This document shows, piece by piece, positions 8,715-62,813 of a DNA stretch of 64,000 nucleotides. The translations under genes and the position numbers were made by a program. The number at the start of each line of letters is the position of its first letter. Positions within the stretch are counted from its first letter, which is position 1. This stretch comes from Branchiostoma floridae (Eukaryota; Chordata; Leptocardii; Amphioxiformes; Branchiostomatidae): the NCBI RefSeq assembly GCF_000003815.2, contig NC_049983.1:18885180-18949179 (forward strand). Direction: 5' to 3'. Below the pieces are notes generated by a model. The model worked only from the letters and a program-made list of their open reading frames with translations. It was not told the origin of the DNA and did not search any database.

Positions 8715-8858
8715 GGTGGAAGTGGACGTGTGAGACGAGAGAACGTTCTCTGAAGTTGCAACACGCTGGAGTCTCGTGACTCTGAGCAGATCCCGGACTT
8801 CGAACCTTTATGGGACCAACGTGACCACCATATTTACCATGGCAGGGGAGGGGCCGGG

Positions 8859-12276: not shown

Positions 12277-12436
12277 GGTGGAAGTTGACGTGTGAGACGA
12301 GAGAGCGTTCTCTGAAGTTTCCAAACGTTGGTCTCGTTACTCTAAGCAAATCATTGACTCGAAGCAAATCCTTGACTTCGAACTTTGACGGGGACAATGT
12401 GACCACCATATTTACGATTGCAGGGGAGGGACCGGG

Positions 12437-41700: not shown

Positions 41701-44700
41701 TTTGCTGTGTACCCTGGTAGTTAAAGACATGTGTGAGTTTCTTTTGGATGAAATCACAAAACTTGCTGTGCTACACTTTCAGCAGAGGTAACCATTTCCT
41801 TAACAGTTTAGCTTGATGTTTGTACTATAAATAATCTACTGTTGCATACAAAAAAATGCTACATCTAGAAAAACACAGAAGGCACACATGTAAATCTGTT
41901 ACTTCAATCACTTAGAGCTAAACTATCTACACAGTCACAGTGTGAAAGGGGGGATCTAACTATCTATGCATCAAAAGCACTGCAAACCTGCAACTTTGTT
42001 ATGCACACCAAACTTTGACAAAGAAAGGTTAAACATATCTTGTTTAACAAGAACAACATCTAGTGAACTACAAACTACCAGTTAATTTCACACATTAGTG
42101 ATCACAAGCTAGCAGCACAGCACAGCTACGAGGGAGGAAAGAGAGAGAGAGAGGAGGAGAAAGTGACAGAAGAGTTGGTAGACCCACCGGACACCGCAAG
42201 GAAGATCTTTTCAGATTCAGAGGTGTTGACATAATTCCGCCCGTGGATTTTACTGCGCACTTTAGCCGTAACGTTCAATTGGTAGGGACTGGCGGGCTTC
42301 AGGTCCTCCAGCAGGGACCACTGGACGGGGCCGTCACGAACGGGGACCTCCCGCCTTTGCGGCAGCGCACAAAAGAGGTACATAAAGGAGCACTGGCTGT
42401 AGAGAACATAGAAGCTGTCCACCCTGCGAAGGGCCATCCCCGGCTGGGTCCAGCTCACATTGATGCTGGTAGCCGAGACCTGCTCGATTCTGAGTTGCTC
42501 TGGTTTGAAGGGGGCTGTGAGGAGTGGAGAGGGGTGAAACGGGGCCAAAGAGACAGAGCCAAATTTTATCATGCAGATAGAGCAGCAACTGGTACAAATG
42601 TAGGTCCATTAGGCCCCCTTTCAACCAGACAGTGATCGCTGAGTGACCATACAGCAGCCAAAATTGGACTTGCATGAGCCTTAATTTCACAACTGGAATA
42701 TAACACATGGTACAAGATAAAACACACAAAATGTCAAAAATACTTGTTTAGTCTATGAAATTTGTTGAGCAAGTGTCAAATATTTGGAGGCTCAGTGGTC
42801 ACTGAGCTGTGGTCGTCTCCAGTGAAAAGGGGGTTCTGAGAATCACCAAAAGACAAAAAGGAATGTACAATGTTGGTAAGCAATACAATACATTTATTTG
42901 TAGATGGCAAATCATATTTTTGAATTCACAAAAAAAGCAAAACATTCTAAGTTCACAAATGTGCATTTTGACTCCTTTTACTACTGATTACTTCACAACC
43001 ATTTTACAACAGTGTGACCATAATGTAGAACAGACCTTCTACAGAATCAATCCTTAATCCATGATAGCCATACTTACGTAGAACATCAGTGTTAACAGGG
43101 AAGTCTCTAGTTCTGGAACTGGTGGATCCACTGTTGAAGCTCTCCATAGAAACCATGTAGAAAGTAGACGGTTCTGCGGAGAAGACATACAAGAGGTGTC
43201 TGTCAATCAACTGCAAACCCTGCAAACTGCTATGTGGCATAACATATCAAAAGACTGATCCAACAGCCCAACCAACATTCGTCAAAACATAGACATGCAA
43301 AATAAAGACAAAAAATGCAAACATTTGATGAAATGAAGCCACCATCTTGGTGTTTCACAAGTAATACAAAGCTACCTATGACAGGTCACTCACTATGCAA
43401 TATAATACCAGTTGTTCATTACAAAGCTAGTAAGAAACAACGTATAATATTGAACTGTACTCACGTAGGTCTTTTATAACGTAAGACCTTACGTCCCCAA
43501 CTTCGATGACAGTTTTGTTGGAGGGACAGGTGCTGTATAAACAGTAGTAGATACGGAAGCCCAGGATCCTGGCTACAGGGGGGCTGGGGACAGTCCAGGC
43601 TATACCGATGCTGTAGGCTGTAGTCTCAGGTTTGTCTCTATCTATTACTGGTACTGGTGCAGCTGAAAAATGGGGGTAAGACTGTTAACCTTTTTGCACA
43701 CGAAAGTAACGATTTGGTTAACAATTCTCTACTGGTTATGGAGATACATATAATGTAATCTTAGCAGGGAAATGACTAAATTTAATGTTTAATATACATG
43801 CATAGGGATAATTGGAGGAAAAACAATATAGAAGACCAGTCAAGGATTGAAAATACATCTAAAAGTTGAGGGTTCTTTTAATTCGCACTCTAAGAAAGGA
43901 GTATGATGCAAAGGCAGCAGTGCAACATTTTACTCTTTCACAAGGCAAATTTGAACAAATTTGTAAATTGCCAAATAGTAGTTACTCGAGCAACTCAATT
44001 ATGACTTTGAAAAATTGTATTTTCCAAAATATCCTTGGAAAAGTTACTATTCTTTGGAGTATCTTACTACCTGGATGTCTAACTTTCATTGACAAGTTTT
44101 ACATCCTTTCCATTCACAGAACAGACCTTTACAGACAGTACAAAGTACATGTAGTAAATTCATAATAGTCCTCTGATACAGACCTCCCTCTGTTGTCTGT
44201 GTATGGTTGACCCTCCAGTCCCCATACACCAGCCGACCTGACCCAAAATCATAGTACACCAGCACCTGCACCTTGTACAGGGTGAGGGGAAGGAGGCCAC
44301 TGATGGTGGCATTCTGGAATAGAGCACGGGAATGGTAAAAACACTGGAAGAAAGTGCTGCATACCTACATATACATTTGTAATATCAGGTTCACGTACAA
44401 GTACATGTATTATTATGTACAGGTACAGGCATGGGTACAGACCTACATTTATACCTGTACCTGTACAATTTGATAAAGTAACGTGTGGTTTTCAATGATA
44501 GCAGAAACATGAATTAACAGTTAACAGAATGTTTCTTTAGACATCAGGTATCTTATGCAGTGAACCCATGCTTTTGGAAGGCTAGGTGGTGGCAATGCCC
44601 ATACAATGTTCTAATCTTTCTTCAGTAAGAAAGTTTCATCATTGTGGTTGGAATACAGGAAGTGTATTTCTAGTAACAAATATAAGTCATCACATTATGC

Positions 44701-47700
44701 ATTTGAATTTATTCAGGTACAGTACAGTTGTGGTATTTTGGATCTGTACCAAAATGACTTTCATGCTAACAAAACAACCGAAAGACCATGCCATAATGGA
44801 ATATCAGTGGTAGTACACATTGTAGAAACCTGTTGGGAGATGGAATGCAACCTGAGAGGGTCAAGGTGGGGAAATGCTTTTGTATCAAATGGAAATCACA
44901 TGTGTAAGACCAAGTTTGCAATACGCACCATGACAATTATTAAAATGGAATCAATACTGCAAACAGCCTTTTGTTTGCCAAAAATAATAGCATGTATACT
45001 GCCTTATACACCTTGTAGAACAGCTGCAACCTTTTACAATTGTGAGGATGTTATATTATTGAGCGATGGAGATCATTATTGACATTGCTGAGCAACCTTA
45101 ACAACTGATTATTCTCTATAAACAGTATACCCTTGGTGTATGGTTATAAATGCAGACATAAAGCTTTAAATCTATCTGCCAAGCATTTCTTTGTAGCTCA
45201 TTTGCAGTGAATTTTTTTTGTTGACCTTGACAACTGTTCTTGGTAAAGACGCTTCGGTTTATTTGTATATATTGTTTGTTGTCTTCTGGTTGTCTTACTG
45301 AATGTAACACGTTTCGTTTTTGTTATTTATGTAGTGGGCCCCCTTGGAAATCAACTTCAAACAAGTTGAAGGGGCTACCCACATGTTTTGAGATGAATAA
45401 ATAAATTTATTGTTTGGATGATGGCACACCATGACTTAAGGCTTTAGTCTGTACGTGGCTTAGAAGTTGGTTGAATCCAGGTATCACATGCAAATCCTAC
45501 CAGAAGTGCATGTACTGGGGGAAATCTATGAATCATCTATTATATGCAACTTGAGAATACACTCTGACTTTCCTTTTCACTTCTGCTGCCAGCTTTGAAT
45601 TACCAGATGCTTCCAATGCCAACAGTAACTTTGTTATCTCCGCAGATTGTATGATTTTGGAGACTAATGGCCAGACAAATTTGATAACCAAAGAGCCTTT
45701 TCCCTCAACGTCAACCAATTAGAGACTGCTTCCTGTCAGAAGTTCATTGAAGAATGGCACACAATGTATCATAAAAGCAAAGATTGACATTCAGAGTTAG
45801 ACAAGTCCACTAGCCCGATTGTCTCAAGCAAGTGAAAGTGCTGATCGGGCAAGCAAATGTCCTACCCTACTTGCCAGATTGGGCAAGTAAGATTTTTCCA
45901 GAGACTTTGATCTACTTGTTAACTTTCAGTCATGGCATCAGGCATTGTTTAACACAGGAAAATAGAGTTGCTGGATCTTACTTACTTTTTACGTGCAATT
46001 TGATATTTAGGTTGTGGGCTGGAGATGGGTGTCTTTTTATACTATAAGCTGGCTCACAGTTTGAACAGCTCATGTGCAAAGTCAGAGGTGAAGGCTCCTA
46101 CCTTGAAAACAGTTCTTGTCTACGTACCAGTATTTTGTTTGTCTCAGGAGCCTTCATATTTGACACATTACCCACACTGCACGCAAGCAGTTCAAACCAT
46201 GAACTTGCTTATGATAATAACAAGGACCAAATGTCTTAACAGTTTCTAACAGCTCTACATACACGTTCTGACAATCTTATAACTAATTCTATTTCATTAA
46301 ACCATGCACAAGGTAAATCCTAACATTTATCTGGTACATCACAATACAGGTAAAAATTATATAAAGGATGGTTGACTTAATATGGACTTATCAAAAATAC
46401 AAAGGAAAGTGAAACAAATGGACATAAATCATGTAAAGAAAAGTAAGGAGAAATCAACTTGACATAAACAAAAGTTAAACTCAGATTGTGATGAACAGAT
46501 GAATAGAGGAACAGACCTCAAGGTCCCTACATATGCCAGATGCATTCAGGTCTCTGCTTGCAACTTCCGTGCAAGGTGTATTCACCTGATCAGCATCGAA
46601 GACGAAAGAAAACAAAAAAAGAACAGTTGATGTTGGAAAACACAAAGAGGCTGACACATGGCTTTGGAAGTACATAAAAGTCCTGCTCTACTTGTACGCA
46701 ATAAGCTGGCTCATAGTTTTAGCTGTGCATGCATGAGGTCAAAGGTGTAGGCCCCTAATGTGAAAACAGTTCTTGTCTCAAGATGTTTTGTTTGATATGC
46801 CTTTATGTCTCAGGGGCCTTCAAGTTTGACAAGTTACTCACAATGCATCACACTGTGCATGTGCAGTTCACACCATGAGCAAGCTTATTATGTCTCAATG
46901 ATACCAGCCAGAGCTATATAACTTGCATTAGGAAATACACCCTTTACTTTTTTTTTCAATTAGCATTTTGCAATCCCTTGCATATCCATTTGATTAGCAC
47001 CAACATTGCAATAATACAAAAAAGCAGCTGCAGACATTCTTATTCATGGCAGCAATGGCAAACAATTTTGCAGTTATGTCATGGATCAAGCTGAACAAAA
47101 AAGGGTGCATGCTGCATGCCAGTGCATATTTGAGCACTATTAGCGACCACTCACAATATTTAGTGCTATTTATTACTGTGTAATCTATGGTTACTTTGGC
47201 TTGTCAGATCAACGACAAGTTGAAACTGACTTGTTGTATTGGGATTAAAGCTGTGCAAGAGTTAAGCAAAAGGAAAGGCTGCATGGTGCTACCGGTAATA
47301 GCGCTTCAGAATTCAGATACATGTGCTGAATTGCTGATTCTGAAAAAATGTTATCTGCATGCACCTGTGTACCTAAATATGACATTCTCAAACTTCTTGT
47401 GAAAGGCATAAGTAACAGTGGACAAGTGCCCCAGCCAGCATCCATTGCAAAAGAAAAGCCATTAAAGCATGGCAGCCAGTACTAGCACACCCAAGCGCAG
47501 CATGCACACTTATACAGGCATCATTCACATGTAACAATCATGAGGGAACATGCCATACCTGGGCACTCCTCTTCAGCTTGATGTTACTGGCCGCCCTGCG
47601 CGAGCTGTTCGCTTCTCTATAGCTGAGGAAGTATCCCCACTTTATGTGGCTGGGGACAGAAATGTTGGGTCCCACCCACGACACAAATATCGCCGTCCCG

Positions 47701-50700
47701 TTCAGGGCTTCCCCGCGCAAGTTGGTCACCTTTTGGTCGGGTTCTAATGCAGTTGAGAAAAAAAAATATGTTTATTTGAATGAATCTTTCAATCTTCATT
47801 TACCTATTGAATCATATACAGCATAAATACAAAGATAATACACTTCTGCATTGTGTTGATTTTACAGGTGGTGCAGCAAAGACTGGGCATGAATACAAAA
47901 CCAATTATGATTCAGTCTGGATGTTGCTGTTGTGCAGAAAAATTGTTTAGTCTACAAGTGTGTGGTTGGGGAACAGGGAGGTCTCTTGACTGTCCAAGCA
48001 CAGGTGAAAATATCTTTGAAATATCAGAAAAGATTTTGAAATGTTTTTTTATCACCTTCCCAAATGTACCTGTCACCTTTTCAATATTTATTGAAGAACT
48101 ACACTGCAATAGCTGTTGAAATGATTCTCAAAAAAGCACAAAGTAAGGCCAACCAGTAGAAGAAACAGATAACTGCAGCTGTATGTAAACTTCACAGAAC
48201 CAAGTTGTTCTTACTGAGCTCTCTTGTAGAGATGGGATCTGACTGTGGACCGGTGACACTGTTGCCTTCAGCATCCGTGGCCTTTACTTGGAAGAAGTAC
48301 TCAGTGTCTGGGATCAAGCGACGCACGACCAGCCCCGTGTCCTGAGTTGTGTATGTACTGGACTTGCTCCAGCTGCCACTGCTTGTACTGGGGACAGAGA
48401 GTTTCAGGACAAGCTTAGATACATGTTGATAAACTCCATGGACAAGGGAAGAAAAGAATCATTTAACACAGCACATGGCAGGATTTTAAAGGTACATGTA
48501 CATGGTCTCAGAACATCATGCGAAACCACATGGAAATATAGAGAGTAAAACAGCAAGAAGCAAATCAACGATCTAGACAATGCAACTTAAACAACACAAA
48601 AACATCCTTCTCCCTTGTACACAAAAGAAAACCATCGCAAAAGTAAATGCATTTACAGTACTCTGTGAGAACCAAGGTGTTTTCTTGTGGCATCTTACCT
48701 GACATTAACAGTGTAGTTAACTTTGCTATCATTGACTTGGCTGGCAGTCCAGGACAGCTTTATAGTTGTAGCCGTCACCTTCAGTGCTACCGGCTGCCCT
48801 GGGGGGTCTATACCCCTGGGTGACCCTGGGGTTGACGGGGAGGAGCCTGGGTCCACATTAACCCCAGGAACCACAGGTAGTTTAGGGGAGGAGGTTGTCC
48901 CCGAGGGTTTATCAGTCTGTAGTGTGGAGGATGCGGCTGTGATGGAGGATGGAGATGTGACTGAGGAGGTGGACACCCTCGCAGATACAGACGCTCCAGC
49001 TGATGTACTCAGGGTGGATGTTCTCGGGGAAGTGCTTGTAACCACTGGGGCACCTGTGATTGTCAGAGGATAGAGAGTTCATTTACTACTAGGAGTTACA
49101 GAATGATGTAAAACAAAATCTTTTGTCGACATGTAAGAAATTCTAAGAAAAATAACTTTTGTTTTTGTGGCATCTATACATGTATGTACAAATAACCCAC
49201 AAATTTCATCCTCTCTGAGAAGAGACTCTCTTGCAAAATGAAGTTGCCACACATGACAAATCTATCCAGATTACAGTTGGATAGGACTGATACACAAAAA
49301 CAGCCAAGACTCTGGTGATGGTTTACATGATTGGCTGTACACATTCTATCGAGGACCTGTATGGGGAATTCTGGGAGTGCTTACTGGTAAATCTAACAGG
49401 ACTGGTAATCTTGAAAAGTACTTAGTCTAACTTATTCTGGCAAAGTTTTAGGAAAGCTTTCATTGGATAGACCTGTGATAGACCTTTGGGTGTCTGGATA
49501 TTTGAATATTCTAATGTTTACAATGACAATATTGTTGCCGTAATTGGTTAATATCTCATTCTGCATCTGACACAGCAGTCGATAAAACAATTTGTTGTCA
49601 TCATCTCTCTTGATTTTAATTTTGGATTGCACAGTGTGCGCTTATGGCTACATATTTCTTCTAAATGGAGCAGCTATTACATAACCTTGAAGACCTGTAG
49701 TCTGAATTTGGCACGATGAAAAGAAATTGAAATGTTCCAAGCACTTCGGCTCACACAGAACTCCTATTTTTCTATGTATGGCGGCATTGACCCAAACCAT
49801 CATCATACCAGCTCCGACCAGCTCATGTTTAAAAGGAAGCTGACCCAAGACATGTCAACAAATGGCCTTATGACAGATCCAGCTGTTTTGGTGGGAGTGG
49901 CGATTTCATCTGCACAGTTATATGTGTCATTTCTGCAGTAACGCTCAATGCTACAGACGGCATGTCATGGAGAAAACATCTCCTCTGAAGAGTCTGATCG
50001 AAATAGCATGTAGCCAAAATGCGTCATGGAAGCAAAATTAGGTAGTGTACAAACTGTAAAACATTTAATTTGAATTTGGTGGGTCTGACTGACCATGAAA
50101 GCAAGTTTATTTGAACAAATGCATCCTTATTTAAATTGCTTAGAATATGGTTAAATCCGGTAAAATGTATAATTTGGTGAAGTGCGATTTCTAATTTTCA
50201 AACGCAAGTTGCAGTTCATAGCAAATTTGCACAGTAACACGATATAAAACCCGCCCATTGTGGTCAGCAAACGATGTTGCTTCATGCACGAGTGCTTATG
50301 TTATGGCAGTGGCTGAATGACTATTTGGGAAACAAAAGCACTTTGGACAATATGCCTTTTCTCACCTGTCAATCTAACAGGTAACCGTACCCACCGGCAT
50401 CGAACACACAAAACAATCAGACAACCAAATGTACCATTCCCAACCAATTAATCAGGCCGAGATGGGCCTCTCTGGTTCATTAAGAGTGGGGTGCATGCTG
50501 ATGCCTGGTAAAGTGGGTCTCCCCACTCCATCAACAGTTGTGTTAATGTTGCTGCAGACTCACAGCTCCTATTCTGTGGGTGTTATGTATTCCCCCTGGC
50601 CTGACACAGGGCAGATTAACTGGGCTGGGGTCCGGCCAGGTCAATTTTCATCTGGCTCCCCTGTCCTGACCCATTTGTCCAAATGTCCAGAACCGTTCTG

Positions 50701-53700
50701 GACTCCGGTTCTGGACTCGAGAACCACCAATAAACATGTACCAGTAAGGGGAGAACACGCCGTGGAAGGGAGAACTTTGAAGTAATCCCTGCGATGCTAT
50801 CTCCGTGAGGCAGCTTTACAGAGCAGACTCTCTAACAGCCATTTCATTTCACCAACTCCAGGCTTGCCATGACCCCTCTCCTCTGGGTGTCTTTGAAGTC
50901 ATTTTCAAGATGCTGCCTTTGTTACACTTTCTTAAACCCATTGTTCCACCCTGTGTGTTTCCATCTTAAATGATTACAACGTGAGACCTTCCCCACATAG
51001 AGGTCATATCAAAATCAAATGCTTTTACATTATAACCAGAAACTTTGAAGTTATAATTTGCATCATGATTGTTTTAGACCTAATTGCTTCCTGTATACGA
51101 CAGAGATTCTAACTGTGTCCAAACTTGATTTTTATTTAGAGCTCGTATCTATAGAGCTTCAATCAGCTGTAGTTTTTCTCAGATCACCCTTTCTCCTTGG
51201 AAATTCCCCATCCACTGCATCTTACCATGACCTTCTCCTAGGAGACCTGACCTAACCTTTCTGTCCCAGTATATTTTCCATGCCACATTTCTACCCTAAC
51301 ATCAGCATTGTTGTCCAGCTTGGGGAGTGGAGATAATGCCAGATTGCCATGAATAAACCACTGGGAAGTTAACAGTTTGGCCTCTCACAATTGCCAGGCC
51401 TATTATGATTTTTAAAGAGAGATCGCTGTTCTGCTTCGGTGCAATGACTGTGTCAGATTGACTTTATGTCTCTGGGTACCATAGTTTGGGAGGATTCTTT
51501 GTTCCACCCTTTCTTTTCCCTTTTAAATCATGGGGCTCGTGATTTAGTCAAGGGGCACATGTTATCAGCGGTGTCTTTACCTGGCATGGCAACCGCTATT
51601 GTTGAGGACGTTGTGTTTCCGTCTGTGTGCTCTACAGTGCAGTTGTACAGGCCCTTATCCTCTTCCGCCGCCGACTTGATAGTGAGAGTGTAGCTTGGAA
51701 GACTCAAGGCGAACTTAGAAGGGTCTGTCACGGTGACCTGGTTCTCCGAGGTGTCACTAAAGGATGCCACATTGGCTCCATCCTTTATCCACTTGACATG
51801 TTTGATGTCAGCAGAGGTATTGTTGGCTGCTGTACAGTTGAGAGTGACGTTCTGTCCCAGCTTGAGGATGTAGGCATCTGCATGCACTGAAAACAACCAT
51901 CAACACACAGTTAAACACTGTAGAGGGACAATTTTCCCAGTAGGGCATTACTCCTAGGGTTTACTTAGTGAATAGGAGGTGAGGAGGAGAGTGAATCATT
52001 TCAAACTCTTTGAGACTCAATTGTCCATGACTGCAGAAAGTGATGGAAGCTTTGCGGTATGTAGATGACAAAGATCAACAGATTCAGGACAAGATAACCC
52101 TTTTGTTAAGAATCTTGCTGATATTTTCTAGGGAAAATGACTGGTGGTATGGTTGACATAGACTACATGTAGATTGTCCATTCCAGATCTGTATACATGT
52201 ATGACTTTATGTAAAAATCTTTATCAAATAAATGGAAGAAGTAAGTACCACAGAGACTTAATTGTGAATCAAATACATGGAGAGGCGGTAAGTATAAGGT
52301 TCCCTGGAAAAAAAAAAGTTTTAAGCAAGCTCTCGCAAGTAGTGGTATAAAAATACATGTACTGAATATATATTTATCTGTGTTACAAATCACACCCAGA
52401 CATGTCTGTTTTAGACAGGAACAGTTTGACCCTTGTTCTTCAAGTGTCTGGTCCCATGCTTTTGAACTATGGTATGTAGATAACAATGCCTCTGAGCAGT
52501 CTCCTGTCACTACAATGTGTCAACCAATTAAGTCATGTATTATTAAAGTCAATTACGTAATTATGTCAGGTATGATCTTCATATACTATGAGTCACATCG
52601 GCATTGCTATGACTAATATTTCTAAATATCAAACTCTTATGCACAAAAATCATTTTGCTTCTGTGACTGAATAGCTTCCTGATGACATTTAACAGTAAAT
52701 GTCAGTCATTTATCAGTCAACAAAGAGAGTCTTTCTTCTCTGCTGCTATAGTTCCATTGCATAGTGGTTATAAATATATATAGGAGACAGCTTTGACAGA
52801 TAATCATGTGGTATGCAGCACATCATACCACTACACCACTGTTGATCTTGAAATGTATGCAGTGGTTTTATTTTCATATTCTCCAAGAAGAGGTTGAGTC
52901 GCAGAGGTAAAAGTGGCCAGAAATGGTGAAAACATGAATACGAAATGGTGAAAACATGAATACATGCAATATAATGATTCCACGGTATTACCATACTTTA
53001 CTTTAAAAATGTCGCTACTGCCACTGCTAAAACCTCATTTCCCCTCCCCCCACCGCAAAATTAAGTCCTCATGAAAATAACTGAATTTACAGTAATGTAG
53101 TCCAACTTCTCCAATCTAATTTCCACCGCCAGACCTACGGTGCATGGAGCGCAATTAGATCATAGCTGTCTATTTCTGTCCCAGAAGTTGATCCCTGCAC
53201 CCACATCTAAGATGAGAAGATAAGTCTTCAATTCTCTGTTCAGCCAACAGAACCGAAGAACCACTGCAGGGGGATCTACCAGAGAGAACCTGAGACTCGA
53301 CTAAACAACAACAAAACTGATGTTATCAAAGCCGTTTTCAGTCAGGAAGTTATTCCGCACATGCTTGAATGGATGTACAATATTTTGGCAACCATTAGGA
53401 GTTTCAAATCCATGTTTGAAGCATAGCAAGAATGTGTATACTCGTCTGAGACAGTACTACACTGTACACCATATGGGAGGCATAGGCTAAACTAAGCCAA
53501 CACATGGTAATAGTATACTTCCTGTCTCCCCTCTATTTGTATACAAGAGGATATACACATCATGTAGGCATAACAAACTGGACAAGAGCTATCCTGCTTG
53601 AATAATCATACTAATGACTGTCTTGAAAGAACTTTGCAATACCTCTGCTCTGTATGTCCAGCAATTATCTTCAATCCTGCTTTGACTATTTAAAGTGAAA

Positions 53701-56109
53701 TATCTAGTTGTAGATTCTTTTCATAGAACAGTATACATAACAACTCTCAATATCATAATCATAACAAGGTAAAGTAAGTTTTGTATCATGAATTCCTTTT
53801 GCAGTAAAACTTAAAAGAAAACTAAATCCAACAATCACACCCTGACAGTCAGCAAAATTCTGATAACGAGTTACTCCTCTTGCTGACCTGAGACTCATCT
53901 AAATCCTTCCATCCAGGAAAGGGCAGCTCTGTAAAGTAAGGTCGATGAACTTGGCCATGGTTCAAAGAGGGCCTTTCCTACAACATTTTCCAGAGGTCTC
54001 CTGTATCCCCAGACAGGAAGTACCATTAGCAGCCATGGTTCAACCTTGTAGGTACAGCTGGCATCAACAAAAGACTGGAAGACATACTGCTACATGTATT
54101 TTAGCAACCTCAACAAGAGTCTTGGGGTCACTTGTTAGCATTACGAAGATCTTATGTTTGGGTTGATAACTGAAGGAATGGACTGGAAAACGACGGATGT
54201 CACAGCAACTAGATAAATTGTTTGATTTTTTAACTGTCAAGTGAGCAAAAATCTGGGCCATAACAAATATTCATTAAAACACCCATGGACATTAAAATCT
54301 AATATTGCAGTTCCATTTGTACTATTATTATTCCTCTATAAAATCATTCACTCATCAATCTTCCAGTAGGCTCTAATACATACCAAAAGTCAATAAGGCC
54401 TGTCAGTAATGATGTGCCCCTGCCCATGAGTAATGACGTACGTGTACATGTCATGCCAATCATAACATGTCCACCCTATCTTGGAAATCACTTCTGGTTT
54501 ATCAGCGAGCCCTTTCCTCGCCCCGCTATTTGCCAAAAACGACCTCTGATTAAGATTGTATTAATACGTCATTCAGGGACATGCTACACTGTGTTACAAT
54601 TACTTAGTAGTCACCAGACATGATACAGCAAATGAACATTATAGTATTATCTACAAAAGGACCATAATTAATTCAACATGGTCACATTTACAAACAGGAA
54701 TAAAGTAGTCCAGACGTTTGATTGCCACAGAATGAAAGGCTGACCTTGACTCGTATTGTAACAATGGGTTTGAACTTTGCTACCAAACAAGGCATCACTT
54801 TAAGTCAACATGAAAGTGAAAGATCATGGTTCTTTTATTATGTGCCTTGATTGTCCAGAAAACATGGCTTCCTCTTTCGAGGATCAGCATTGCTGACGCC
54901 CACAATAGGTTTTTTGCTACGCAATAATGGAACTACATTAATTAAGACATGAGATTAAATTGTGATCTTTCTGTTCCTTGATTATACTCCTTTCTTTTTG
55001 GACTTCAAGAGTGTGAATGGCCCCTTCAGCCAACTATCAATATTTGCCTTGCCATAAGGATGTTTTCCCCTTAGGACAAGTGTTCCTTGCTTAAGAATTG
55101 TTGAAATGTTCTTCAATTTTACAACTTCGGCTAGTCATGGTTACAACTTGGTTTTACTTCTTTTTTTCGTATGGACCACACAGGAAATACTTCCTGTTCG
55201 CTAGACCCTACACAGAGCTGTACATTGGATTTGGAATTGCTATGCAGAATACAATTTGAATACATTTCACTGGTCATAAAGATATGGACAATGTCAGAAA
55301 TTATCATCATCGATGGATGAAATCACAAATTTTACAGTAGAACAATCAGTACAATATATTTTCAACTTAACGTTATATCTAGTACAAATGGAAATACAAA
55401 TACATGTCATTGAAATAATAAAAAAAGGATTATCAAAATTGTAATCTTTTTGTGTGCTGACATCTTTTGTGTGGCTTTCTTTATTTGGGAAGGGGGAAAA
55501 GTTAACAAACAATTCACATTGGGTATGTGTTAGGTTGATAATTCCAGGAACTGGGGAAGTAAGATAATCTATTCTATAATTTGTCTTTTTATTGTCTCAT
55601 AGTGATATAACAAAATTCAATACAACAATGATGAAACATTATTTTGATCATACTCATGGGATTAATATCATATCCCGTTTGTGGCTGTGTTAGAGGACTA
55701 GTCTTTGATAATGTAGTCATAATACATAATAATATCACAATCTGCCAAATATTTCCCTTGTGAGTTGTGTACTACAACTTTGGGATGAACATAAAAGAAT
55801 AAAAAGGTTGACAGATTAGCATAAGGTGTAGGAAAATATCATTCTTGTCCCCATGTGCCTTAAACCACCAGTTCCCAATTAATTTAGTGTATTGCGTGCT
55901 ATCTGGGTCGTTTGCTTCAGGAGTTTATCAGTCTGTACGTGTCACAGTTTGGGCACGGGGGAGGCATGTCGGCCCGACTCCAGCCGTGCCCCCGACACAA
56001 CCTCAAGCTGCTCATTTCCCCCTTCCCACAGCCTCAAACAACACTTACCTTGGACCAAAATGACGACAAACATGTAGAAATGGAGGTGAAGTTTCCAGAC
56101 ATCCCTCAT
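20605..56109 (-). CDS. Type R5 receptor protein tyrosine phosphatase (PTPRG/PTPRZ-like), 25 coding exons
   Basis: Reconstructed exon by exon with GT-AG sites and matching phases, 5' to 3': 56109-56049, 51886-51581, 49053-48699, 48387-48215, 47743-47559, 44313-44184, 43662-43465, 43173-43078, 42514-42188, 41315-41161, 38620-38529, 38123-37926, 37496-37417, 36842-36806, 36535-36438, 36030-35896, 35340-35189, 34728-34593, 26748-26508, 26002-25926, 25529-25404, 24437-24291, 22117-21975, 21479-21344, 20718-20605. Product about 1298 residues: signal peptide 1-23, Ig, Ser/Thr linker, four FN3, membrane helix about 638-661, D1 phosphatase (Cys about 925), D2 pseudo-phosphatase, C-term ESTESLV. It would dephosphorylate phosphotyrosine on proteins at the plasma membrane. 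Subfamily R5 rests on D1/D2 identity to PTPRG, including [13 protein letters not shown], the D2 Asp and the SLV end. There is no carbonic anhydrase domain. The total is one base over a multiple of three, traced to exon 10 (41315-41161). Confidence 0.93.
20793..20983. mobile_element. hAT-like MITE nested in an older repeat
   Basis: The ends CAGGGCTGTCACCAGG and CTGGAGGCTGCCCTG are imperfect inverted repeats. The flanks GTCAAAAC (20785-20792) and GTGAAAAC (20984-20991) form an 8-bp target duplication with one mismatch, as for hAT elements. The related repeat at 43242-43345 has GTCAAAACATAG uninterrupted, showing the empty site. It lies in the last intron of the phosphatase gene. Confidence 0.75.
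22118..24290. other. Phosphatase intron 22; no exon seen
   Basis: AT-rich intron between exons 22 and 23 with no supported coding. A GC-rich block at about 23330-23530 stands out, with a hairpin (ACCCTGCCC, spacer, GGCAGGGT) and CGCCTTCGGCG. It could be a repeat or a conserved non-coding element. Confidence 0.55.
24973..25322. mobile_element. 350-bp MITE with CAGGGCTCRAAATA ends
   Basis: Left end CAGGGCTCAAAATA and right end TATTTCGAGCCCTG are inverted repeats. GTAGT occurs directly on both sides (24968-24972 and 25323-25327) as a 5-bp target duplication. The interior repeats GCAGGTA/TACCTGC words. It lies in the intron between exons 21 and 22 and ends 80 bp from exon 21. Confidence 0.8.
26884..26990 (-). 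pseudogene. Partial duplicate of phosphatase exon 19 (5' end)
   Basis: Bases 26884-26946 are identical to 26711-26773, which are the acceptor side of exon 19. The tandem unit is 173 bp. The copy keeps the splice acceptor (CTGTTGACAG) and 13 codons ([13 protein letters not shown]), then reads into a stop in former intron sequence. If used, it would end the protein between D1 and D2. It sits upstream of the true exon in transcript order. Confidence 0.8.
27613..27925. repeat. Tandem repeat, 106-bp unit, about 3 copies
   Basis: Units start at 27613, 27719 and 27825 (CCATGCCATAYCGTGCTAGC) and are nearly identical. The third is cut short at GCTTGGTTT. It is preceded by a (TGTCCGTC)-type run at about 27578-27606. 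Each unit includes TATGTAACGTTATGACATACG, with internal dyad character. Confidence 0.9.
29200..29640. repeat. 56-bp minisatellite, about 8 copies
   Basis: GTGCCGGCAG recurs at 29259, 29315, 29372, 29428, 29484, 29540 and (as GTGCTGGCGG) 29596: spacing 56, once 57. The outer units are more diverged. Each unit contains TTTTGTTCTGCCCGTGAGGC and a variable ATTATCATTATTTT part. Long open frames across it are a by-product of the repeat and are not called genes. Confidence 0.92.
31064..31221. repeat. 78-bp tandem duplication
   Basis: TTACGGATTACCTGGACTCT onward to GAGCGCGAT occurs twice in a row, with starts at 31065 and 31143 and near-perfect identity. Located in phosphatase intron 18. Confidence 0.9.
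34180..34330 (-). pseudogene. Diverged partial copy of exon 19 region
   Basis: Matches the 26830-26960 block (CATTGAGAGGGACTCAAGAA, CTCATGAACTTC, GGCAGAAGAT, CAACAGATAGGGGGCACTTC), with several substitutions in the exon part (TTGCAGTATATC for GAACAGTACATC). It lies about 260 bp downstream of exon 18 in transcript order and 7.4 kb from exon 19, so the exon fragment has been duplicated at both ends of the same intron. Confidence 0.75.
34436..34458. repeat. (CAT)n microsatellite
   Basis: Seven to eight CAT units in phosphatase intron 18, about 135 bp from exon 18. Confidence 0.9.
34593..38620 (-). CDS. Phosphatase exons 11-18: juxtamembrane region and active D1 domain
   Basis: Exon 11 (38620-38529) is juxtamembrane ([20 protein letters not shown]). 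Exon 12 carries the wedge-like helix and the KNRY loop ([15 protein letters not shown]). Exons 13-16 encode [41 protein letters not shown] and KCDQYWP. Exon 17 has the WPD loop ([15 protein letters not shown]) and ends inside the P-loop after VVHC. Exon 18 continues [19 protein letters not shown] and ends at the Q-loop QTE. All catalytic elements (WPD Asp, Cys, Arg, Gln) are present, so D1 should be active. Identity with PTPRG is high throughout. Confidence 0.95.
35654..35945. repeat. Tandem duplication overlapping exon 16
   Basis: Bases about 35654-35800 resemble about 35801-35945: GTGAGTCACATCAATAC, then CAAGTTCC/CAAAGTTCC, then TGACCTTGGCATGGCGTAAG and CCTGATGGTGTG. The second unit includes the last 15 or so codons of exon 16; the first is a decayed copy lying in the intron. 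Confidence 0.75.
38386..38520. repeat. Dispersed repeat, copy near exon 11
   Basis: AGACTGATCCAAAGCCCC, then CATAGAAATACAAAATGAAA, then GGTTGAACTG and TAATGGATAG parallel 20757-21135 and 43247-43345. All three are in introns of the same gene in the same orientation and close to an exon. Confidence 0.6.
39750..40087. mobile_element. hAT-like MITE, CAGGGTTGYAGCCAGC ends
   Basis: Inverted ends CAGGGTTGCAGCCAGC and GCTGGCTACAACCCTG enclose 338 bp. The flanking octamers CAACACCA and CAATACCA differ at one base, fitting an 8-bp hAT target duplication. It has no transposase frame. Confidence 0.78.
40633..40776. mobile_element. Tc1/mariner-like MITE
   Basis: TACAGTCAAA at the left and TTTGACTGTA at the right, 144 bp apart; reading the outer TA as target duplication leaves CAGTCAAA inverted ends. 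A related sequence (CAGTCAAACCTGTTCAAGTGG) starts near 16459. Confidence 0.65.
41161..41315 (-). CDS. Phosphatase exon 10: stalk and membrane helix
   Basis: The exon encodes a Thr/Pro stalk ([12 protein letters not shown] in the incoming frame), then [15 protein letters not shown] and the membrane helix ([20 protein letters not shown]). The two halves are in different frames as the sequence stands: the incoming frame reaches TAG soon after VQTT. One base fewer in the plus-strand GGG at 41280-41282 restores both the incoming phase 1 and the outgoing phase 2. Assembly or allelic indel is the simplest reading; use of an earlier weak donor in exon 9 is the alternative. Confidence 0.8.
42188..42514 (-). 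CDS. Phosphatase exon 9: FN3 domain 4
   Basis: A whole FN3 domain on one exon, unlike domains 1-3: [46 protein letters not shown]. It has an insertion ([15 protein letters not shown]) between strands. The donor CCG/GTGGGT leaves phase 1, and the next exon then reads correctly only if one base is removed near 41280. Confidence 0.88.
43078..43662 (-). CDS. Phosphatase exons 7-8: FN3 domain 3
   Basis: Exon 7 (43662-43465) gives the first half ([36 protein letters not shown]). Exon 8 (43173-43078) gives the second half ([20 protein letters not shown]). Both junctions are phase 1. Two Cys in [11 protein letters not shown] could form a local disulfide. Confidence 0.88.
43242..43345. repeat. Dispersed repeat, uninterrupted copy
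   Basis: AAAGACTGATCCAACAGCCC, GTCAAAACATAGACATGCAA, AATAAAGACAAAAAATGC: same family as the copies near 20757 and 38386. It shows the empty insertion site of the MITE at 20793. Confidence 0.65.
44184..47743 (-). CDS. Phosphatase exons 5-6: FN3 domain 2
   Basis: Exon 5 (47743-47559) gives [20 protein letters not shown] then VSWVGP, and exon 6 (44313-44184) gives [20 protein letters not shown], the Tyr-corner half. They join in phase 0. The exon 6 donor is weak (GAG/GTCTGT) but is the only one that fits the next exon's phase. The 3.2 kb intron between them holds two related MITEs. Confidence 0.85.
45795..46000. repeat. Dispersed repeat with GGCAAGT words (partial copy)
   Basis: GCAAGTGAAAGTGCTGATCGGGC, CAAGTAAGATTTTTCCA and CAGTCATGGCATCA match the element at 60704-61017 in the same orientation. 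The right part is lost. Located in the phosphatase intron between exons 5 and 6. Confidence 0.65.
46044..46212. mobile_element. MITE with ATAAGCTKGCTCA ends, copy 1
   Basis: Inverted ends ATAAGCTGGCTCAC and TGAACTTGCTTAT. The interior shares GAAAACAGTTCTTGTCT, TTTTGTTTG and GCAGTTCA with copy 2 at 46701-46888. In the intron between exons 5 and 6. Confidence 0.75.
46701..46888. mobile_element. MITE with ATAAGCTKGCTCA ends, copy 2
   Basis: Inverted ends ATAAGCTGGCTCAT and ATGAGCAAGCTTAT, 188 bp, in the same orientation as copy 1. A very short relative (AATAAGCTCATG..GTGAGCTGGTTTAT) lies near 24880. Confidence 0.75.
48215..49053 (-). CDS. Phosphatase exons 3-4: Ser/Thr linker and FN3 domain 1
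   Basis: Exon 3 (49053-48699) encodes about 80 residues rich in Ser, Thr and Pro ([23 protein letters not shown]), a likely O-glycosylated stalk. It then starts FN3-1 ([19 protein letters not shown]). Exon 4 (48387-48215) completes it ([30 protein letters not shown]). The split is in phase 2, in the middle of the domain. Confidence 0.9.
49054..51580. other. Phosphatase intron 2; no exon seen
   Basis: Between the Ig exon and the linker exon. No coding supported. The stretch about 50380-51300 is less AT-rich than most introns here, with CCAGGTCA/TGACCT and palindromic GTGGGTCTCCCCAC features, and may hold regulatory sequence. Confidence 0.5.
51581..51886 (-). CDS. Phosphatase exon 2: immunoglobulin-like domain
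   Basis: Residues about 24-121 form one Ig-like domain on a single exon. The B-strand is [12 protein letters not shown] lies in VKWIKDG, and [20 protein letters not shown] is the D-x-G-x-Y-x-C signature. Three or more NxT/NxS sites lie within it (NVT, NCT, NTS, NTT). Symmetric phase 1-1 boundaries allow the domain to be shuffled or skipped without a frameshift. Confidence 0.92.
51887..56048. other. Phosphatase intron 1 (4.2 kb); no exon seen
   Basis: The first intron, between the signal-peptide and Ig exons, whose phases match directly. A 3' end fragment of the TACTGTAAATGC MITE family (CCACCGCAAAATTAAGTCC, GAATTTACAGTA) is at about 53015-53095. Nothing else is recognised. Confidence 0.6.
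56049..56109 (-). CDS. Phosphatase exon 1: start codon and signal peptide
   Basis: The ATG at 56109 opens [20 protein letters not shown], a signal peptide with a hydrophobic core (FYMFVVILV). It ends after one base of the next codon at the strong donor GTAAGTGT. The phase joins exactly to the Ig exon (G + TG = Val), so nothing, such as a carbonic anhydrase domain, is encoded between them. Cleavage is likely near VHA/DAY. Confidence 0.85.
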
Positions 56110-58189
56110 GTTTCTCCCTGGGACGACGTCTGGACTATTTACAGAAGCAGACGATATGGGAAGCCTGGCCTACAAAATGGATAGTTGGTGGACTCTTTGA
56201 CTCCCGCGAAAGGCTGTGTGTCCCAAAAGGAGGAAGTTCCGCTGGACAAATAGGGCTCCATAAATGTCTAAGGAACTAAACTACATTTTCTATGAGCTAC
56301 TTTATCCTCGTTACTGTTGTACAGCTCTGGCGTTTTCACTTCCGACGGAAGAACGGCGAGAAATTAAAGTGGAAGTGACATCAGTGCCGTAGGAATCCTC
56401 TTTCGGGCTAGGTCAGCCATCTTAGGGACAGACCACTGTGGTGGAGTGAAGGGGGTTCCGTTATTGTTTTGTTGTGGTTTTTTAGTTTCACAAAATTTTG
56501 GTTCAAACCGTTGTCTTTTGGATTAAAATAATTGAAATGGCTGTTTCTTAAGGTTTCAAATAACTCAAAGCTATAGTTTTGGAGAAAACTGTGCCATTCG
56601 TCTACAGAAGTTATGCTGCCAAAGTGAAATATCCCAAACATTTTATAGCTGTCTATCACAAGCATTAAAGAAGGTTAGAATAAAAATGGTATTTTACTAG
56701 ATATAATGTCACAAAATGTAAAGTAATCTGTAATTATAAATATTTTCAGTTTGAATGTATTGATTAAACGGTATTAGATTGGTAACTAGCAAGATAATGC
56801 CAACAGAAAACTTATATATCATAAGGCTCAAAAGATTGTTACGAGGGACAGCTAAACTGCTGGCGGGACGGTCAGATTGGAAAAGGTGAGATCGATTGTT
56901 CACAGCTTGTTGAAGTTGCAATTTTTGTGTGTGTTTAGATGATGGTAAGTTCTGTCACGGCCCAGAAAGCATGAACAAATAGTTTGTTCTAATGACTGTA
57001 ACATCAGATCCTTTACTTGTGGCCGCAATGTGGCAAGGATGACGTTTATTTTATTGCTCTTGTCCTAGGCTATGATGCTAAGTCGGTGAGACTTCCCAGG
57101 TCCAGGTCTAGCATAGCATAGCATAAATATTATCTCCAGCATAGCATAGCATGAATATATTAATCTCCAGGCAGTGCTGTGGTCAATGAAACTCCTCTGC
57201 CGTCTAAACTTTTTCCCAAGCTTACTGTAAATGCATAAACTTTTGTGGTGGTTTAATGTTTGCGATGGCCGCTTCACTGCGAATTAAACCACTGCGAACA
57301 TTTTTCCATGGCAGAGACTGCAGTGCATGGTCATGATGGTGCTACCACGAACTTAAAACCACCGCGAAAAGTCCTTTTTCCCGCTACCGCGAAATTAAAT
57401 CCCTGCGAAATTAAATGCATTTATAGTATATGGTACTATCTTTATGCCACAGCAAGATTGGCCTGGACTATATATGTAAGTTGATGTAACTGTTATAGTA
57501 CTGTATATACATCACTGCATGTATAGGGGTGGGTATTGGTACAGGAAATTTAAGTTCGGTTAAGGTCCAGGGAATCAGGTCTATGTCTAACTGGGGCAAC
57601 AATCGCAAGGAAAAACGTAATGTACAGCGTTTTTTTTCTGCACGTCCCTGGCTTCCCTGGAGTCTTGCCTACTTGCACACCGTTCGCAATTTCAGGTTTT
57701 CCCAAAATAGCCCAAAACACTACCTTTGTCAACGAAGCGCTATGCCTAACTGGTCCCGTCCGCCATCTTGACAAATTTGTCGATATTTGGGACCACCTTC
57801 GGCAATGCTCTACAGGTAGCCTTTCCAGCTATGTTTGGAAAGTGGTCAGAAATGCCTTGGGAGGCTATGAAACCTTGCCGTTGTATGTTTTGTTTATTTT
57901 TTGTTGTTCCTCATTTGTTATCATCCTGGGAGCTAGTAGAAGTGGCAGTGGTACTATTTGTCTTAGTATTGGATACTATTACTAGTATAACGTTACTACT
58001 ACTAAGCTTGTGCCAGTATTTGTGCATTAAAACCATAGAGTCAAATTGGACCAATTGCTGACATCTCATGTCCGTAAGGTCAAGTGACCTATAGCTAGAT
58101 GATTGGTCATTGATAATTTTGATGTATGAACACATGAACACTATTCAATATAGCCTCTCTTCCTACACAGATCGAGCCATCTTGTGGAA
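56110..58189. promoter_or_regulatory. Divergent intergenic region between phosphatase and FHIT
   Basis: This separates the start codons of two divergent genes, so it should hold both promoters and 5' UTRs. The phosphatase side (about 56330-56420) has a CACTTCCGACGGAAG ETS-like dyad, GTGGAAGTGACATCA and GCCATCTTAGG. The FHIT side has CGTCCGCCATCTTGAC at about 57757, a YY1-type initiator-region motif. A MITE of the CGCGAA-rich family (57223-57428) lies between. Motif matches only; upstream non-coding FHIT exons are possible. Confidence 0.5.
57223..57428. mobile_element. MITE, TACTGTAAATGC family, copy 2
   Basis: TACTGTAAATGC at 57223 and GCATTTATAGTA ending at 57428, with the family's CACTGCGAACATTTTT, CCACCGCGAAAAGTCC and TACCGCGAAATTAAATCC words. 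It lies between the divergent phosphatase and FHIT genes. Confidence 0.9.
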
Positions 58190-60621
58190 ATGGCAGGATC
58201 ATCATTTAGATTTGGACAGCACGTTCTCCAATCATCGTGTGTTTTCTTCAAATCCAGGCTCAGTATTGGGTTTGTCAACAGGAAGCCTGTTGTTCCTGGT
58301 CGTATCCTTGGAAGATCTACTTGTTTTTTCTGGTTTTGGGCTACCTATATACTAGTAGTATGCACACTGAAGCTTCTAGAAAGCGTTTCCATTTACCCGA
58401 CTTATCGCAGCTAAAACCTGCCAACTGAAGTCTTTTTTTAGATGACCACTGGCATTTAAGGACAAATTTTTCATCTGATGATGATGAAATTCAAAACAGA
58501 AATGTAAGTAGTCTTGCAAATGTTTCCTACAGATTTCATGCTTTGTTGACAACACCGAAATCTTTTTCTTTTTAAAAGAACTCTTGCCTACCAATCCTAA
58601 ATTAGTAGGGCTGTGTTTAATCGATTAGGAATTCTATCCCAGCTCCTCCATATTTACAGGGGCAGCCAATTAGCAATTTGCAAAAACATTGCTGGATATC
58701 TGTTGGATGGAGCCAGATATCTTTTTTTGGTAGTAGGAAAACAGGCCAAAGTCAATACATACGCCAATGTCATGCATGAAAATAGCTGGCCTTGATATGA
58801 TCCTCCTTAGCTGCAGTTCCATCACAGATGTCCTGGTGTCCCCACTGAGAGTGGTGGAGAGATTTGGAGAGCTGTCATCAGAGGAGGTGGCCGATCTTTT
58901 CATGGCCACACAAACAATCTCAGGGGTGGTAGAAAAACACTTTCAGAGCACTTCACTCACCATTGCTATACAGGTGAGAGAAAATACATGCCTGGTAATC
59001 ATTATCATTAAACTTAACTTACTATCCGCATGCAGACTAAGCCTGGCTGTCTTTTACACATAAAAGATGATATGTAGGGGATCCGCCTGTCAATCCGCCA
59101 TGCAAATTGATGGTGGTCGAATATAGTTCAGGGCCTAAAACTTCAAGATTTTTTTCCTGGTCAAATGGGTAGAAATCCTGGCAGTTTTGAGGTGGGTGTG
59201 ACAGGGGAGGGTTTCTACTTTCTGATTAGGGCCAAAAAGCTGAGTTTTTGTGGTTGTTAGGGGGTATAAAGTTGGGACTTTTTTGTCCTAGCATATGGCC
59301 TCCTCACTGGGTTGTGGTGCGGTTTTGAGGTCATGGGTCAATCTTTCAGTTCCCCGGAAGTTTGTGCCGTTAGATTCATGCCGAAATGTGTTTGTTTGGA
59401 TAGCTGAGATGTCGGGCTTTCAAATGAGGGTATGTTTGTGTGCCAGTAACGTCAGAAAGTTGAGTTATTAACAGTTGCTTTCTCCTCTTTTGGGCATAGG
59501 AACCCATTGTTTAGAGGCTGTATATTGAATCACTGGCGGATGCCCTGTAGTATTCTGATATGTCCTGTTTTGTGCTAAATACATTGCATACACATGTATG
59601 TTATCAGGAAAGTCTATGCATTCCTTATATGAACTTACATAAAAGGGTGACACAGTGCATTGTTTTAAATGGATAAGACTCCAATGGGGTACATGACAAT
59701 TTGGGGCATGTGACAATGTCATGTACATTTTTTTCCAAAATCCCTGTTTTCTTTTTCAGGACGGACCTGAAGCAGGGCAAACAGTAAAGGTATAATATGT
59801 ACTTAAGTTTCTAAATCACTTTTTAACCTCATTTTTAACAACAAATTTACTACAAGGTTTGATGTCAAGAACCATAAATTCAGTAAACAATCAGTAAATC
59901 AGACCTCTGTCCACAATGGACCAAACAGTTGTCATTACTGAATAGCTCACTTTTTGATACATCAAAATACCCGTAGATGAACAGTTGTACAAGGTCAAAT
60001 GTGTGTATGCCACAAAGTGTTGAATGTATAGTTCCCGATGTTAAGTATCTTCCAAATTGTTAAGATCTTGTTGAAAGCATTCATCTATTGGAATAATAAT
60101 ACATGCTACAAAACAGGTCATATGTGAGCATGAAAGTTCATGGGTCATGTGTGAATCCATAGAAGTGCAATACTACAATGGGTTGCAAGGTAGCATTTTT
60201 GAACTGTGCAAAAACAGTGACGAGGCCCTTGCAGTTATTACATCAGGTGCCAGGTGGCACTATTGTGCAGTAACCTGTAATGTTGTAATGTAATGTTCCA
60301 TCCTTGCAGCATGTTCATGTACACATACTTCCCAGGAAAAGTGGCGACTTTCCACAAAACGATGAGGTGTATGAGGCGGTAAGAATTAACCTTTCCATGA
60401 AGAATTGTGTAATTGTTTGTTGTTTGAAAATTTTCATGTTTTTGCTAAAGTACATGTATGACCCAAAAAAATTTGTAACGGCTGTATTTCTTTCTATTTT
60501 TTAGTTAGACAAGCATGACAAGGAAGTGGGTGAAGATGGAAAGTGGAGAACTGAAGAAGAAATGGCAGCGGAGGCTTCAGTCTTGGCTAGATACTTCAAC
60601 TGTCAGGTGGACTCTAGTTAA
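58190..60621 (+). CDS. FHIT: Fragile histidine triad hydrolase (diadenosine polyphosphate hydrolase)
   Basis: Five coding exons with GT-AG borders: 58190-58301, 58828-58973, 59760-59789, 60310-60378, 60505-60621, joining to 157 residues (human 147). FHIT cleaves Ap3A to AMP and ADP and acts as a tumour suppressor in mammals. The N-terminus [20 protein letters not shown] and the stretch [19 protein letters not shown] match FHIT closely. [13 protein letters not shown] and [16 protein letters not shown] follow. Exon 3 is just [10 protein letters not shown], and exon 4 carries the HIT motif [14 protein letters not shown], with the middle His (residue 99) as nucleophile. The tail [18 protein letters not shown] is typical, with about eight extra residues at the end (NCQVDSS). 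The exon 1/2 split falls within the Gly-His pair, as I recall for the human gene. Start chosen at ATG 58190; an upstream GTG frame is not needed. Confidence 0.96.
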
Positions 60622-60703
60622 CATTTACTCCTATTTGTTCACGTTGTGTAGAACTGAACATCACAGTTTTCTATACGTCTATTGTACAGTATCTCATGAC
60701 AGG

Positions 60704-61017
60704 GTTGTTGGACAAATTCGTTATCCCAATTGTCCAGGGCAAGTGAAAGTGCTGAACGGGCAAGCATATACTAGTATCCTACACCACTTGTCCAATTGCC
60801 CGGCAAGTAAGATTTTTCCATTGAGTAAGATTTTGACGTACTTATAAATTCTAACAGTCATGTCATCAAGAAAAAGAGAGCTAGAATAGTAGGTTGCCAT
60901 TACTTTACGTGAAAATAAATGAAAGATGTTATTGTTTCGGGTAAGTGAAAAGTTGGTTTGGTCAAGTAGGTTTGGTATATGTACTTGCCCAAATTTTAAA
61001 AAACTTGTCCAAGCCTG
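60704..61017. mobile_element. MITE-like element with GGGCAAGT words
   Basis: Left end CAGGGTTGTTGGACAAATT and right end AACTTGTCCAAGCCTGG are imperfect inverted repeats. The interior has GGCAAGTGAAAGTGCTGAACG and CAAGTAAGATTTTTCCAT, shared with 45795-46000. It starts only about 85 bp after the FHIT stop codon, so it probably supplies part of the FHIT 3' UTR. Confidence 0.65.
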
Positions 61018-62813
61018 GAATCTCAGGTGGACCCACCTGTGGGGTATTCTCCAGGGTATACTAGAATGCTCTTATTGTACTTAGTAAATGTTAATGGTGA
61101 TCTCATAATAAGTACTTCTCATTGTGTAACACTAGTGATGATAAGGTAACATGCATTAACACAGAAGCGTCTGTTGTGACTAATACATGTACACCATCAC
61201 TGTGATTGTCTGTGATTGTCAATAGAACATTGTACAAGACATCCTGACTGTCCATCGCAATTTGCAGTTCAACCATTGAGAGAATGACAATTAGGGGTTC
61301 GACCAGTGAGAGAGTGGCTGCATATAAGTGTTAAAGTTACATTTTAAAGTATTTCGCAGTTCTATGTATTGATGGAGATGGGCTAAGCCATGGGAACGTC
61401 CTAAATTGTATTCATATATGGGAGTCGCTAAACTTGACTTTAATGATATAGTTAGTGATATCACTAAGGTCACTAAATACATCCTTGTGACCAGAATTTT
61501 TGGAAAGGAAATATATACTAGTATGTGTGTTTTTATAGCACATTTCAGAGGATGCAGTTTCCCGTGCTTGGGAATTGCATCATTGAAATGACTAGACAAT
61601 ATCTTACATAGATTATGATAAAGTTGCTCTCCTTCAGTTTGTGCAAAACCAGAAATAAATCTGACTTTGATAATGACCTCATTATACACATGGTATGTGT
61701 GATGAGAGGACATTGTGAATAACAGTAGCTTCCTAACTTTATCAATGTCTACATTGTTGTCAAGCAATGTAAATCTAAAGAAGGTTAGAGTTTAAGAAAA
61801 TATATGAAAGTTTTAACAGGCTGATTTTGCCTTATTTGCCTGGACCTCTGTTGGGGCTTGTTATACAATCATGTACATGTAATAAACTGTTGTTGCACTG
61901 TATTCAGTAAGTGTTGGGTAATGAATGTATAATAACAGGTTTTCATTTGATGAAAGGGAGTGATCATTTGTCTGTCAAGTGGACACCAATATCTGTCCAC
62001 TGATATGAAAACAGACAATATGGCATTTAGATTATACAGTATTCATACTGTACATGAAATCCGATAAACAAAACATGACATGCTGTAAATGAACCTTGTA
62101 TCAAAAGAATACCTATTTTGGTACATTTTATTCTTTGGAACATTTAAAAGGAAGCAGACTAGATGGCAGGCTACACAAAGACACTGCCTTGTGCATCCAC
62201 ATAAAGGGATAGTATAAAGATCGGTATCTTGAACTATGAAACATTTTGTTCAAATGTTTATCTACAATCTCTCAAATACATTCAGTATCACAACTTCAAA
62301 GGAACCTGCTAGGCGAAACATCTATCTTGTGCTCCATTTGACAGTTAGGCAAACTGTTGAATGTAAAGCGTGTCTCATCTCTCATGCAAAATCACAAGAT
62401 CTTTGCATAGAGTTGCACAGTTAGGGAACTGGTATGGATGTGCTGGGTCTGCAGATTTAGTTGTCTTTAGTTTGAAAGTCATTTCACAAAGCTGTTTCAC
62501 ATCAGGTCAAACACATGGCACCCTTTCCACACTTGTTTTGCAGGCCCTGCCAGCCATGAGGCATCGCTAGGATTAGCCGTAAGGTAATGTGTTGACTTAC
62601 AGCCAAGATTTGGTCCACTGCGACAGATGGAGCTGTGTGTGATTCATGCAACAGTTTGGGTTTTACTTTTAGGGAGAGTACTTGTAATGTTACATGTACA
62701 TGTGAACTGAGAGGCTCTGCATGTCTTTTCCGTCAGGTGTAGGTAGCCTATTTTTATTTCCCATAATTCGAAGGGAAACCATCTTATCTACGTAATTTAT
62801 AGCAAGGCGACCA

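Follow-up and report, generated by a model that had tools for sequence, protein, structure and literature searches.

We analyzed a 64,000-nucleotide stretch of the genome of the lancelet Branchiostoma floridae (the window; contig NC_049983.1, hereafter C5, positions 18,885,180-18,949,179), taken from a 513-Mb assembly of 431 contigs that was the one lancelet genome searched. The window contains a gene for FHIT that lies head to head with a receptor phosphatase gene of the R5 type, and we found this pair to be flanked by FEZF and KCND genes. The row KCND-FHIT-R5-FEZF very probably represents an unduplicated chordate gene neighbourhood, from which vertebrates derived two blocks by genome duplication and reciprocal loss. 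The lancelet row fits both human 3p14 and human 7q31 in order and direction, with three of the four genes kept in each region and with the human strands as we take them to be, and the FHIT-R5 neighbourhood probably arose before the vertebrates did.

The order on C5 was FEZF(+), R5(-), FHIT(+) and KCND(-), which in mirror image reads KCND(+) FHIT(-) R5(+) FEZF(-). We take the corresponding human orders to be FHIT(-) PTPRG(+) FEZF2(-) at 3p14 and KCND2(+) PTPRZ1(+) FEZF1(-) at 7q31. The FEZF orthologue at C5:18,679,725-18,680,219 (+) showed 93% identity over 165 residues, compared with 47% for the next match, and lies ~226 kb past the R5 stop codon. On the other side, ~10 kb beyond FHIT, the minus strand at C5:18,955,923-19,003,307 contained an N-terminal exon of KCND/Kv4 as well as parts encoding its pore and its C terminus, all of which probably belong to one gene; the N-terminal exon matched KCND2 best (468.5 bits). 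Thus KCND and FEZF both extend the same order and direction beyond the pair itself when set against the assumed order of a distant lineage, human, and the ancient FHIT-R5 linkage proposed by the original prediction gained support from this ordered row, which matches 3p14 as well as 7q31. In the 3p14.2 region (FHIT-PTPRG-FEZF2, the FRA3B region) the neighbours, their order and their direction were alike, and in the 7q31 region (KCND2-PTPRZ1-FEZF1-CADPS2) the same was true of KCND, R5 and FEZF, both on the assumed human arrangement. The genes listed for a 7q31 duplication include KCND2, TSPAN12, ING3, WNT16, FAM3C, PTPRZ1, AASS, FEZF1, CADPS2 and NDUFA5 (PMC8962598); in contrast with the lancelet row, FHIT is absent from the list and four listed genes fall between KCND2 and PTPRZ1.

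The history that would connect these regions begins with FHIT, a diadenosine triphosphate hydrolase, and a receptor phosphatase whose ancestor would also have given rise to PTPRG and PTPRZ1. The two would have been neighbours since the chordate ancestor, each with a promoter of its own in the 2 kb between them. The block would have been copied by genome duplication in the vertebrate stem; KCND would then have disappeared from the 3p14 copy, leaving FHIT, PTPRG and FEZF2, and FHIT from the 7q31 copy, leaving KCND2, PTPRZ1 and FEZF1. A carbonic-anhydrase (CA) domain would have been added to the phosphatase only in vertebrates. FHIT is evidently mobile, as another copy is found at a distance of 18 Mb, and the two genes might instead have become neighbours twice, once on the way to lancelets and once on the way to vertebrates; we consider such an independent adjacency very unlikely, because the genes on either side of the pair, KCND and FEZF, are arranged and oriented as we assume for both human regions.

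To place this row in its wider setting, further 3p14/7q31 genes were compared, and all five tested (FEZF, CADPS of the MUN family, THOC7, NDUFA5 and SCA7/ATXN7) had a match on C5, which makes up 5.8% of the assembly. The NDUFA5 match lies 0.55 Mb away, and a further MUN locus lies on C2, the C5 locus being CADPS by its best solved structure. Several observations weigh against an ancestral neighbourhood. The CADPS, SCA7 and THOC7 matches sit 7-10 Mb off, and for THOC7, NDUFA5 and SCA7 the matches assign one or two exons to the family and do not establish orthology. Among three control families, which we take to come from other human chromosomes, NDUFA12 (presumably human 12q22) also fell on C5 (27598232-27598396), with the other two on C2 and C6; this may be a coincidence, or human 12q22 may share this ancestral chromosome. 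Additionally, the first KCND exon lies across a gap of 100 N at C5:18,993,360, and searches by family overlook genes split into short exons: the one for HIT gave no signal at either FHIT, so that copies elsewhere could be overlooked. The human strands and order are those we presume, and the comparison covers this one lancelet genome and that human order. Because one control was positive, presence on C5 is by itself weak evidence, and the weight rests on the close, oriented order.

The pair itself was found as the original prediction had described it. FHIT is on the plus strand and the R5 signal-peptide exon on the minus strand, the distance between the start codons is 2,081 bp (58190 - 56109) where 2.08 kb had been claimed, and the interval given for the pair, 56049 to 58301, ends exactly at the two exon ends. 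A scaffold misjoin had been named as an outcome that would overturn the linkage. We found C5:18,887,234-18,993,359 to be free of N, a stretch that contains R5 and FHIT in full as well as the 3' portion of KCND; because no N occurs across R5 and FHIT, a misjoin at a scaffold gap cannot account for the pair. A misplaced haplotype could be suspected from the diverged FHIT copy on the same contig (FHIT2), but the copy shares only 5 kb, and its best-aligned noncoding parts are 78-88% identical, for which a local duplication is likelier than an allele. An assembly artefact of either kind is thus extremely improbable.

The FHIT gene was complete, as predicted. Its five exons (58190-58301, 58828-58973, 59760-59789, 60310-60378 and 60505-60621, plus strand) splice without a break into an intact product of 157 residues, which carries the HVHVH triad of the HIT domain. 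The best matches among solved structures in the PDB were FHIT/Bis(5'-adenosyl)-triphosphatase chains (216.5 and 210.3 bits), followed at a distance by a Nit-FHIT fusion (127.8 bits). As regards a stand-alone FHIT versus a Nit-FHIT, two open reading frames on the plus strand of the spacer matched no family above its cut-off, although no nitrilase-directed search was made. Intron 1 has signals of the U12 type (minor spliceosome); its donor GTATCCTT is the sole occurrence in 64 kb on both strands, and this donor is conserved in FHIT2. Candidate 5' exons were scored with a hand-made donor consensus. One ending at 57815 (CAG/GTAGCC) was rejected, as its donor is absent from FHIT2, and two ending at 56885 and 56944 have donor scores equal to that of the 58973 donor and lie outside the segment shared with FHIT2.

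The phosphatase gene runs on the minus strand from the signal exon at 56109-56049 to a stop codon at 20605 (Table 1). The donor at 56049 had the top minus-strand score within 56,000-58,160 by the same hand-made consensus. The signal exon ends in phase 1, as required by the acceptor at ~51886 where the Ig exon begins, so that the signal peptide reads into the Ig domain; because the two phases agree, the predicted signal-peptide exon gained support. We found that the two tandem phosphatase domains, D1 and D2 (587 residues, joined by hand), were nearest to PTPRG (767 bits) and PTPRZ (713.5 bits) among solved structures, with the next subfamily, PTPRS, at 585 bits. The catalytic cysteine of D1 is intact, whereas D2 reads VHD followed by RYGGVSA, with Asp in the cysteine position. 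Asp in place of Cys in D2 is an R5 trait, and it is also present in the matched PTPRG structure chain. The extracellular part carries FN3 domains, of which R5 receptor phosphatases usually have one and this protein has four, and is followed by a single transmembrane segment recognized by eye. The CA domain was not found: none of the 33 CA matches in the genome lies on C5, and the gene has an Ig domain and four FN3 domains instead. The gene is therefore R5-type by its phosphatase domains and lacks the CA domain by which vertebrate R5 proteins are defined. Calling it PTPRG-like, as had been done, was apt for the phosphatase domains, which are nearest to PTPRG; the gene is better described as a pro-orthologue of both PTPRG and PTPRZ1 that lacks the CA domain. 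A LAR-type identity, considered on account of the Ig domain, was rejected since the catalytic region is nearest to PTPRG/Z. No close second R5 was seen: D1-D2 matches outside the window were at most 68% identical and mostly 35-60% (74 of 161 first-look candidates scored).

We also observed that the EQYIF exon at the end of D1 occurs in three minus-strand copies (34275-34231, 26921-26877 and 26748). Two of these reach an in-frame stop within a few codons and could truncate R5 before D2 if spliced in. The intron before this exon contains, by eye, a tandem array of ~56-60-bp units (CCTCACGGGCAGAACAAAATCG...) at 29240-29620 in the minus reading.

Table 1. Positions in the window of the R5 and FHIT gene parts and of the elements in and around their spacer.
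Feature	Position	Strand	Basis or remark
R5, end of D1 (EQYIF exon), D2 with VHD replacing VHC, tail ...ESLV and stop	20605..26748	-	sequence reading, structure match
R5, phosphatase D1, catalytic motif interrupted by an intron after HC	34593..38070	-	sequence reading, structure match
R5, transmembrane segment exon	41160..41315	-	hydrophobic stretch, by eye
R5, four FN3 domains, several exons	42183..49054	-	Pfam fn3, 4/4 pieces above curated cut-off
R5, Ig domain exon	51585..51886	-	Pfam ig 2e-11
R5, first coding exon (signal peptide), phase-1 donor	56049..56109	-	ATG 56109, donor 56049
Spacer between start codons	56110..58189		should contain 5' untranslated regions and promoters
ETS-like CGGAAG pair	56339-56351		motif match
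GCCATCTT, YY1-like, candidate R5 promoter element	56416..56423	+	motif match
Segment common to FHIT and FHIT2	57107..62089	+	counterpart C5:~861.5-867.0 kb (minus); blastn and alignment
Miniature inverted-repeat transposable element (MITE)-like repeat with inverted ends	57223..57428		other copies near 63530-63736 and 12800-12980
FHIT, five coding exons, 157 residues	58190..60621	+	spliced model; FHIT best among solved structures
FHIT intron 1, U12-type signals	58302..58827	+	donor GTATCCTT, TCCTTAGC upstream of acceptor

The second copy, FHIT2, is intact at C5:864,865-862,681 (minus). It shares 153 of 157 residues with FHIT, with synonymous and nonsynonymous divergences (dS and dN) of 0.10 and 0.011, and its protein matches Pfam HIT at 1.9e-23. 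The homology was confined to the ~5-kb segment listed in Table 1, which excludes ~1 kb of the spacer on the R5 side; upstream, in intron 1 and downstream the noncoding sequence was 78-88% identical, while introns 2 and 4 were lower. We rejected an allelic origin of FHIT2, as a shared stretch of only 5 kb fits a local duplication better. Near FHIT2, neither an R5 match (D1-D2 search) nor R5 exon 1 (blastn, 20 kb around FHIT2, of which 2,559 bases are N) was found. Judged from the alignment, the duplication that produced FHIT2 seems to have included the half of the spacer next to FHIT and to have left the R5 side behind. The MITE-like repeat lies inside the FHIT-R5 spacer at the border of this shared segment, and FHIT2 adjoins open frames that by eye resemble long interspersed nuclear elements.

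These data bear on whether the spacer is one control region for both genes, a shared bidirectional promoter whose co-regulation holds the pair together. The genes are head to head with only 2.1 kb between their starts, and the window has six GCCATCTT motifs, more than any of 100 shuffles, of which three fall within the 2-kb spacer; we take these motifs to be YY1-like, and the CGGAAG pair to be ETS-like. According to PMC6292497, 25% of neighbouring amphioxus protein-coding genes have a bidirectional promoter arrangement, and stem vertebrates lost many of the ancestral ones. At a quarter of neighbours, divergent pairs are by themselves nothing unusual in lancelets. In contrast, FHIT2 lacks the R5-side kilobase and yet has kept its coding sequence, as its low dN indicates. 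The copied part of the spacer (57440-58189) was 82% identical where aligned, compared with 88% for intron 1, so no extra constraint is visible in it, and of its two GCCATCTT motifs the one at 58176 was kept in FHIT2 but the one at 57762 was lost. We therefore regard a shared promoter as unlikely, and the shared regulation suggested by the original prediction was not supported, with FHIT2 left without the R5-side kilobase. FHIT and R5 most likely have separate promoters, with that of R5 placed at ~56.1-56.5 kb on the YY1-like site and paired ETS-like sites there, and that of FHIT at ~57.1-58.2 kb, as suggested by the copied segment. If FHIT2 is expressed, FHIT would be independent of the R5 promoter, and FHIT2 offers a natural test of whether FHIT needs its partner's promoter.

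What kept the row together may also involve FEZF. FEZF encodes a developmental transcription factor that, in the human arrangement we assume, is placed and oriented alike within both copies of the row, and FEZF enhancers situated inside R5 and FHIT or past them could hold the two as bystanders. Such lock-in of bystanders is an established model (PMC2745767), although 226 kb separate FEZF from R5 and the enhancers are hypothetical; we regard such a regulatory block as possible, if rather doubtful. Short distance and shared descent would be sufficient for the persistence of the row and may explain the retention of the pair, with long-range FEZF elements among the bystanders as a further possible reason. 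A more elaborate version, in which the row was a pre-vertebrate FEZF-centred regulatory landscape whose expansion after duplication separated FHIT from PTPRG, made the giant introns of FHIT and produced FRA3B as a by-product, appears improbable, somewhat more so than a shared promoter. The unduplicated row with reciprocal losses resembles the genomic regulatory block model of PMC2745767, where neighbour order is kept after duplication with alternate losses; the row differs in being known from gene order in lancelet and human alone.

The lancelet and human 3p14.2 regions differ in scale. The lancelet starts are 2.1 kb apart, the FHIT coding exons span 2.4 kb and the phosphatase has no CA domain, whereas the human FHIT and PTPRG starts presumably lie hundreds of kb apart and the human FHIT coding exons spread over more than 1 Mb. 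The contrast in spacing suggests that the linkage is older than the growth of FRA3B, as had been proposed. According to PMC8766859, FHIT was later discovered within the PTPRG region. PMC11788884 places the origin of the domain combination of PTPRZ1/PTPRG in the vertebrate ancestor, with which an R5 gene without the CA domain agrees. A legend there sets PTPRZ1 beside lancelet CA7-like and PTPRA-like models, and the PTPRA-like model could be this gene. With its Ig and FN3 domains and both phosphatase domains nearest to PTPRG, the lancelet R5 looks, from its predicted protein, like a better PTPRG/PTPRZ1 progenitor than those models. A survey of titles and the beginnings of abstracts revealed no report of the FHIT-R5 linkage, which may already stand in a catalogue of ancient microsyntenic pairs; term searches found neither FHIT nor PTPRG in the available text of PMC4728774 and no linkage terms in that of PMC2942887.

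Other features were observed nearby. A tandem LAMP-like pair lies on the minus strand, at 6648-8807 (a single long open frame with three Lamp2-like stretches) and at 10169-12336 (several shorter frames). Beyond the R5 gene, C5:18788138-18788506 contains an N-acylglucosamine 2-epimerase (RENBP-like) exon, and C5:18839184-18842305 contains two adjacent open frames for putative small secreted glycine-rich proteins, an apparent local duplication.

The lancelet row provides an unduplicated reference for FRA3B/FHIT-PTPRG and for KCND2-PTPRZ1-FEZF1, both of which are medically studied. It makes testable whether the growth of FRA3B came after a compact ancestral state, and the lancelet R5 is a likely pre-carbonic-anhydrase progenitor of PTPRG and PTPRZ1.

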